DNA of 64,000 nt. Origin: Flavobacterium sp. N2820. GTDB taxonomy: Bacteria > Bacteroidota > Bacteroidia > Flavobacteriales > Flavobacteriaceae. The translations under genes and the position numbers were made by a program. Where the stretch lies: NCBI RefSeq assembly GCF_025947285.1, contig NZ_CP110008.1, forward strand, positions 2,061,001 to 2,125,000, read 5' to 3'. How positions within the stretch are numbered: the first letter of the stretch is position 1; each line of letters opens with the position of its first letter. Positions 32,057 to 33,900 of the stretch are shown here, one piece after another. The notes under the pieces are model-generated. The model was given only the letters and a program-made list of their open reading frames with translations. It searched no databases and was not told where the DNA came from.

Positions 32057-32149
32057 ATGCCAAGTGGTAAAAAAAGAAAAAGACATAAGGTAGCAACGCA
32101 CAAACGTAAGAAAAGAGCGAGAGCAAACCGTCATAAAAAGAAAAAGTAG
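32057..32149 (+). CDS. 30-residue highly basic protein, possible small ribosomal protein
   Basis: The frame ATG-CCA-AGT-GGT gives a 30-residue protein beginning MPSGKKRKRHKVATHKRKKR and continuing with Ala, Arg, Asn, His and Lys only. Over half the residues are Lys or Arg, and there are no acidic residues. The stop is followed at once by an intrinsic terminator that overlaps it. The composition and the pattern K-R-x-R...H-K-R-K-K-R resemble tiny ribosomal proteins such as mycobacterial bS22 and the C-terminus of mitochondrial mS38 (COX24 domain). I recall nearly identical short proteins in other flavobacteria. An alternative ATG at 32052 is in another frame and gives only 13 codons. The family assignment is inference. 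Confidence 0.75.
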   Translation: MPSGKKRKRHKVATHKRKKRARANRHKKKK

Positions 32150-32284: not shown

Positions 32285-32350
32285 GGATGAAACAAATCAG
32301 CCAGCATCAAAACATCAAACACCCAGCACAAACAGATAAAAATGTACCGC

Positions 32351-33271
32351 ATGAACAAAGAATTAATTATTCGATCAGGTTCAGACGCTGTAGATTTTGC
32401 CTTATTAAAAGATGGAAAACTAATTGAATTACACAAAGAAGAAGAGAAACAAAGCGATTTTGCGGTTGGTGATATTTTTATTGCCAAAATACGAAAACCC
32501 GTTGCCGGCTTAAATGCCGCTTTTGTAAACTTAGGTTATGAAAAAGATGCTTTTTTGCATTATCATGACTTAGGTCCAAATCTTCCTTCTTTGATGAAAT
32601 TTATTAAACTTGTAAGCGCAGGTAAATTAAAAGATTATTCACTCAAAAATTTTCCTTTTGAAGCTGAAATCAACAAAGACGGATCAATTATGGATATTTT
32701 AAGTCCAAATCAGTCGATTTTAGTTCAAGTGGTTAAAGAGCCTATTTCTACAAAAGGTCCCAGAATTAGTTCTGAGATTTCTTTAGCAGGAAGATACGTG
32801 GTTTTAGTTCCTTTTTCAGACCGAGTTTCTGTTTCTCAAAAAATAGAATCTAAAGAAGAAAAAGACAGATTAAAAAGACTGGTTCAATCCATTAAACCAA
32901 AAGGATTCGGTGTTATTGTGCGAACAGTAGCCGAAGGCAAAAAAGTAGCCGAACTTGATAAAGATCTACAAACACTTCTAGAACGATGGATGTCGATGAG
33001 CAGACGATTACAAACTGCAAATCACCCATCAAAAGTTTTGGGAGAGTTAAACAAAGCTTCTTCTATATTGAGAGATGTATTTAACGATACATTTTCTTGT
33101 ATACATGTAGACGACGAAGATTTGTATTTAGAAACGAAGGAGTATTTGCAAGAAATAGCTCCGGATAAAGTGTCTATCGTAAAACACTATCAGTCAAAAG
33201 ACACGCCTCTTTTTGAGAAATATCATATTGAACGACAAATAAAAACGTCTTTGGAAAAACAGTTTCCATGA
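32351..33271 (+). pseudogene. rng: RNase E/G family ribonuclease, N-terminal half (frameshifted)
   Basis: The N-terminal 306 residues of a roughly 515-residue RNase G. Present are the S1 RNA-binding domain (VGDIFIAKIRKPVAGLNAAFVNLGY, about residues 36-60) and the RNase H-like and 5'-sensor region (PRISSEISLAGRYVVLVPF). The frame ends at TGA right after KTSLEKQFP. Adding one T to the TTT at about 33250-33252 changes this to KTSFGKTVSMSKGAYL and joins the two halves perfectly, so a 1-base deletion in a short T-run is the simple explanation. MNKELIIRSG at 32351 is the likely start; an ATG three codons earlier is also possible. Confidence 0.85.
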
Positions 33272-33900
33272 GCAAAGGTGCGTATTTAATTATTGAACAC
33301 ACAGAAGCGTTACACGTTATTGATGTAAACAGCGGAAACCGTTCAAGCAAAGCACTAAGCCAAGAAGATACTGCACTTGAAGTTAACATGATTGCCGCAG
33401 CTGAAATTGCTCGACAATTGAGACTTAGAGACATGGGCGGAATTATTGTGGTGGATTTCATTGACATGCAAAATCCAGAAAACCGCAAAGTTTTATATGA
33501 TTTCTTAAGAGAAGAAATGAGTGACGATAAGGCCAAGCACAAAATCTTGCCTCCTAGCAAATTTGGATTAATTCAAATTACTAGACAAAGAGTCAGACCA
33601 GAAGTAAACATTAAAACAAGAGAAGAAGACCCAAACAATGAACATGGGGAAATTGAAGCTCCAATTTTAATCGTTGACAAAATTGCAACTGACCTTGAAC
33701 GCATTATAAAAGACCATAAAAAAGTTGTACTTAACGTACATCCGTTTGTGGCAGCATACCTTACAAAAGGTTTTCCATCATTACGTTCAAAATGGTTTTT
33801 TGAACATAAAAAATGGGTGAAAATTATACCTCGTGACGCTTACACGTATCTAGAGTTTCATTTCTTCGACAAAGAAGGCAATGAAATTATAGTAAAATAA
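33268..33900 (+). pseudogene. rng: RNase E/G family ribonuclease, C-terminal catalytic half (frameshifted)
   Basis: 210 residues in the -1 frame relative to the preceding half, with which it overlaps by ATGA. It holds both catalytic metal-binding aspartates of the DNase I-like subdomain (HVIDVNSGN and IIVVDFIDM) and the small C-terminal domain (FFDKEGNEIIVK end). The Zn-link cysteines (CPxC) of E. coli RNase E/G are not present: the region reads KTREEDPNNEHGEIEAP. If the frameshift is real, the internal Met could serve as a restart and yield two separate polypeptides; otherwise the gene is dead or the base is a sequence error. Confidence 0.85.

Follow-up and report, generated by a model that had tools for sequence, protein, structure and literature searches.

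A single-base frame break in the RNase E/G gene of Flavobacterium sp. N2820 and its possible origins

RNase E/G proteins and prokaryotic frame transitions

In E. coli RNase E, the RNase H subdomain (residues 1–35 and 215–279) is followed by the DNase I subdomain (residues 280–400), as laid out in an excerpt of PMC2631609, and excerpts of the same paper and of PMC6538622 describe the roles of the catalytic residues D303, N305 and D346 and of the 5′-sensor residues R169 and T170. In the literature searched, by titles and the opening lines of abstracts, we found no account of a split RNase E/G. Nor did that literature yield a statement on the essentiality of RNase G in Bacteroidetes, and the words ribonuclease, RNase and nuclease are absent from the main text of the P. 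gingivalis essential-gene paper. Frame transitions in prokaryotes have been surveyed with GeneTack (PMC3711429); one passage of that survey anticipates that frameshifts which are unclustered and BLASTp-validated will prove to be sequencing errors and not genuine indels, and another passage treats singletons as possible recent indels or errors. With regard to −1 slippage, a section of PMC4066793 reports that in E. coli tetramers without a stimulator act barely above background, and that A_AAA is the weakest of the six tetramers clearly active with a pseudoknot.

The locus described here lies in a window of 64,000 nucleotides, positions 2061001–2125000 of the single 3,055,624-bp contig (NZ_CP110008.1) of a genome rated 99.99% complete, the nearest named relatives of which are Flavobacterium. 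Its RNase E/G gene is split into two overlapping frames, ORF A and ORF B. It resembles the Flavobacterium RNase G type in that both halves jointly span the family profile (PF10150, TIGR00757), in its conserved catalytic and 5′-sensor residues and in its joint length (relatives 513–516 aa from MNKELIIR), but differs in occupying two frames, not one, in this assembly.

A one-base frame break within the gene

ORF A (window 32342–33271, + strand, 309 aa) carries the RNase H-like, S1 and 5′-sensor part, and ORF B (33268–33900, + strand, 210 aa) the DNase I-like catalytic subdomain and the small domain, as judged from Pfam matches and from alignment with intact relatives. The first-pass annotation had placed the start at a second in-frame ATG of ORF A, at 32351 (MNKELIIR). 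Both halves match Pfam RNase_E_G (PF10150) far above its cut-off of 25.5 bits, ORF A with 151.1 bits (E 5.5e-44) over profile positions 1–160 and ORF B with 165.9 bits (E 1.6e-48) over positions 164–270, which bears out the family assignment made earlier. Against the NCBIfam Rne/Rng model (TIGR00757; 415 positions) they score 235.2 bits over 3–272 and 149.9 bits over 276–391 respectively, each alone under the cut-off of 325.95. Since homology continues unbroken through both frames, the split is not a chance juxtaposition. A second RNase E/G copy serving as a backup was considered and rejected, as only this one gene was found in the 3,055,624-bp genome.

Reading the alignment by eye in E. coli numbering, we found the equivalents of R169 and T170 in ORF A (VIVRTV) and those of D303, N305 and D346 all in ORF B (VIDVNSG and VVDFIDM), so that the break does fall at the sensor/catalytic junction, as had been noted from the DNA. 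After the DNase I subdomain the CPxCxGxG motif is absent (ORF B, window 33588–33660); the protein thus differs from E. coli RNase E in having no CPxC zinc-link, like nearly all relatives examined. As CPxC was missing in 105 of the 106 relative loci passing our filter (of 110), the lack is typical of the lineage and does not reflect damage, and the zinc-joined assembly known from E. coli would presumably be unable to form in the same way here. Two metagenomic proteins, P0003 and P0005, join a Flavobacterium-like first half to an unlike second half that carries CPxC, and look like assembly chimaeras. The predicted structure of an intact relative, P0001, was a poor model with a mean pLDDT of 43.7.

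In the frame of ORF A the codons at the break read TCT TTG GAA AAA CAG TTT CCA TGA. The TTT run at 33250–33252 (+ strand) is one base short when printed alongside the DNA of intact near relatives, in which the T run is one base longer and a single frame then continues onward; the last six codons of ORF A, past the break, lie outside the family frame. An A5 run (33255–33259, + strand; frame 0 GAA AAA CAG) follows, and at the ATGA of 33268–33271 (+ strand) the ORF B start codon (33268–33270) overlaps the ORF A stop codon TGA (33269–33271). Aligned with locus L028 of genome G012, the 1,559-base gene shows 113 mismatches and one single-base gap, and because there is only this one gap, the break amounts to one missing base and not to general decay. 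These data confirm a one-base frame break in the RNase E/G gene of this assembly, and with it what had been read from the DNA, namely that one base is lost from the TTT run and that the frames overlap at ATGA.

Just upstream of the RNase G gene lies a very basic 30-aa ORF (MPSGKKRKRHKV..., window 32057–32149, + strand), which is similar to chain 7jil_5, a ribosomal protein named S22 or L38 (E 3.6e-12), and which had no match to a Pfam or NCBIfam model. All 106 relative loci examined contain, at some position, an ORF starting MPSGKKR.

Relatives, selection and assembly accuracy

The comparison with close relatives that the first-pass annotation had suggested showed this split, among the genomes examined, in the source genome only. 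We used a sample of 398 genomes of the genus, including the source, drawn evenly from a larger group; the 12 best non-self DNA matches were all intact by frame reading, with the single continuous frame that the source genome does not have. The closest relative, G530, with 96% DNA identity, has an intact gene, the protein of which agrees with ORF A at 297 of 300 compared residues and with ORF B at 207 of 210. A DNA match to the gene was obtained in 386 of the 398 congeners, the 12 without one being 60–88% complete, and the gene was found in all 333 sampled congeners (source included) with completeness of 90% or more and contamination of 5% or less. Among 395 Flavobacteriaceae, including the source, in which the wholeness of the gene was judged from E-values, 392 other genomes had a match, 391 of them a single match with E ≤ 5.1e-87 and one (G287) two matches, the best at 1.6e-98; two had none. 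A search of 60 genomes, again including the source, gave a match in 57, the three without one being 60–88% complete; 53 of the 59 relatives had a whole single match, and the six exceptions were 60–92% complete assemblies in 110–590 contigs. The G003 gene is a fragment at a contig end, that of G028 is divided over two contigs, and in G031 (L219, G031:C336:1-4500; 590 contigs, 90% complete) the gene has its breaks elsewhere: roughly 200 residues from the start the frame is lost, and at a later point the protein ends early, which may reflect poor assembly or a decayed gene. Of the 120 proteins listed as closest to ORF A, 114 had the plain junction motif and five a substituted but unbroken form, and one ended before it. 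The idea of a split conserved in relatives was therefore rejected, the same pattern being present in none of those examined in the 60-genome, Flavobacteriaceae and congener samples; we found no further isolate of this species. The gene is retained even by G051, a 0.3-Mb genome of the same order, from which it would follow that its loss should be costly.

Strong purifying selection has acted on both halves of the gene right up to the tip. Compared with G012, dN/dS was 0.053 for ORF A and 0.042 for ORF B. In a tip test, in which private silent and replacement changes were counted against the sister G530 and the outgroup G579, the source branch carried 21 silent and 3 replacement changes in ORF A and 6 and 1 in ORF B (27/4 in total), and the branch of the intact sister 12/1 and 14/2 (26/3 in total); with G012 as the outgroup instead, the totals were 25/5 for the source and 24/3 for G530. 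Under neutrality since the G530 split, approximately 100 replacement changes would be expected, as computed by hand from the 27 silent changes and the site counts; as only four were seen, selection can have been absent over a minor fraction of the branch at most. With the more distant sister G012 and L021 as outgroup, the counts were 56/14 for the source and 26/5 for the sister (Fisher P = 0.79, ORFs A and B together), and for ORF A alone 20/8 versus 20/2 (P = 0.15). It follows that the gene was functional until very recently, or still is. In addition, silent divergence between L028 and L021 (from G012 and G023 respectively) is 0.57 in the first 300 codons and 0.10 after codon 306, a step which suggests recombination within the RNase G gene.

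The accuracy of the assembly was surveyed over 664 kb of the source genome (22%) using G012 ORFs of at least 80 aa with matches of at least 60% identity, a procedure that detects only breaks leaving two significant pieces and misses indels near gene ends. Among 220 matched G012 ORFs two were flagged as broken, one being RNase G and the other a spurious ORF within 23S rRNA, and among 151 matched G530 ORFs RNase G alone was flagged; in the opposite direction one of 221 ORFs was flagged with G012 (again the one in 23S rRNA) and none of 154 with G530. As no other matched protein ORF was broken in the surveyed 22%, the assembly looks a good one, and a generally poor assembly, which we considered as a candidate, is unsupported. 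Zero other breaks among 218 sets a 95% upper limit of approximately 1.4% of genes, which, with the approximately 2,700 genes that we assume from genome size, still allows tens of broken genes, so that one chance error at this site would not be surprising.

Weighing the explanations

The explanations that had been listed from the DNA as competing (sequence error, true pseudogene, two coupled polypeptides) are in our judgement the right ones, and we place a consensus error first, with a probability of roughly 0.6. The organism would then have an ordinary intact gene of the RNase G type, encoding one protein of approximately 519 aa that would cut single-stranded RNA and, as its family suggests, act in rRNA and mRNA processing; the assembly would be missing one base in a short T run, from which two overlapping frames appear. 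The site is indeed a short homopolymer, the split is absent in 12 of the 12 best-matching relatives, and selection is undiminished on both halves. The accuracy of the assembly where surveyed speaks against an error, and a very recent true indel would leave identical traces; our ranking sets the good assembly against the fact that a true break would remove a gene retained by nearly every relative. One leftover indel in 3 Mb would be unremarkable, and the break would then be isolated and ordinary. It resembles the singletons of the GeneTack survey (PMC3711429) in that it affects a well-conserved gene, has the backing of homology and Pfam and is not common to the relatives examined; the ORF B start adjoins the ORF A stop, which in the scheme of that survey is a coupling feature, but the split is not conserved. 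A very recent true frameshift in the sequenced strain, leaving RNase G lost or crippled and RNase Y carrying RNA turnover, is the likeliest of the rivals, though unlikely. The otherwise clean assembly would suit it, a loss so recent would not show in excess replacement changes, the genome has an unbroken RNase Y as another decay endonuclease, and G031 offers one other relative with a broken gene. It has to be set against the retention of the gene by all 333 congeners of good quality, the finding that 53 of 59 relatives match over the whole gene in one piece, exceptions being confined to incomplete, fragmented assemblies, the four replacements seen where about 100 would be expected under neutrality since the G530 split, and the smaller backup that follows from our finding no RNase J in the source genome. 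An old pseudogene would account for the broken frame, but the dN/dS values, the 27 silent and 4 replacement changes at the tip and the lack of a second lesion contradict the suggestion of a true pseudogene in this older form and leave it virtually no likelihood.

A true break with function kept by two chains, in which ORF A stops at TGA, translation restarts at the overlapping ATG and the two products pair, appears distinctly improbable. The position of the break gives a fair reason to keep this reading, because it corresponds to residues 278/279 of E. coli RNase E (numbering of chain 2vrt_A), at the boundary between the RNase H and DNase I subdomains; the partition of the 5′-sensor and catalytic equivalents between the ORFs and the stop/start overlap agree with it, and there is a solved structure (6x2d) of an RNase E chain of 115 residues that spans roughly the DNase I part. 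However, no relative examined keeps the split, which gives no sign of selection for it, and the ATGA is inherited, being at the same place in 57 of the 60 intact relatives passing our filter (of 110 loci), so that any similar upstream loss of frame would give this picture. Read by eye, positions −12 and −13 of the ORF B start are A, but −3 is T and −6 is G; initiation in F. johnsoniae favours A-3 and A-6 as well, according to part of PMC8710568. Stand-alone proteins beginning at the ORF B methionine made up 26 of 120 listed database matches (including P0122, P0179 and P0205), but 24 of the 26, in which the longest contig was under 4,100 bases, are better read as truncated predictions, and we did not accept a recurring split; P0205 (12,978 bases) and P0179 (278,585 bases) may be other assembly errors or real splits. 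That this strain has only lately acquired an RNase G of two subunits, divided at the RNase H/DNase I boundary, coupled through ATGA and assembling in trans, we regard as highly improbable. Ribosomal −1 slippage at GAA AAA CAG, proposed in the first-pass annotation for the A5 run, would yield the full-length protein, and we give it very little chance. The frame arithmetic fits and A_AAA is a tetramer motif; the locus also shares with the programmed −1 genes of the IS1/IS3 type the direction of the shift and an A-rich site before the frame 0 stop. It differs from them in that no X_XXZ_ZZN heptamer is present (frame 0 TTG GAA AAA CAG, with the tetramer A_AAA alone), no stimulator was found and conservation is lacking, the frame break being absent in the relatives examined. 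Folding of the 75 bases starting at 33256 is no more stable than that of shuffled sequences (z = +0.72; 157 of 200 shuffles fold at least as well, in a test of simple folds only), and given the tetramer activities cited above the site was judged too weak.

If the break is an error, which is the likelier case, only the annotation is affected, and a conserved gene is wrongly recorded as lost. A real break in a living strain would be a natural test of the flavobacterial need for RNase E/G, and also of whether RNase E/G works as two chains.
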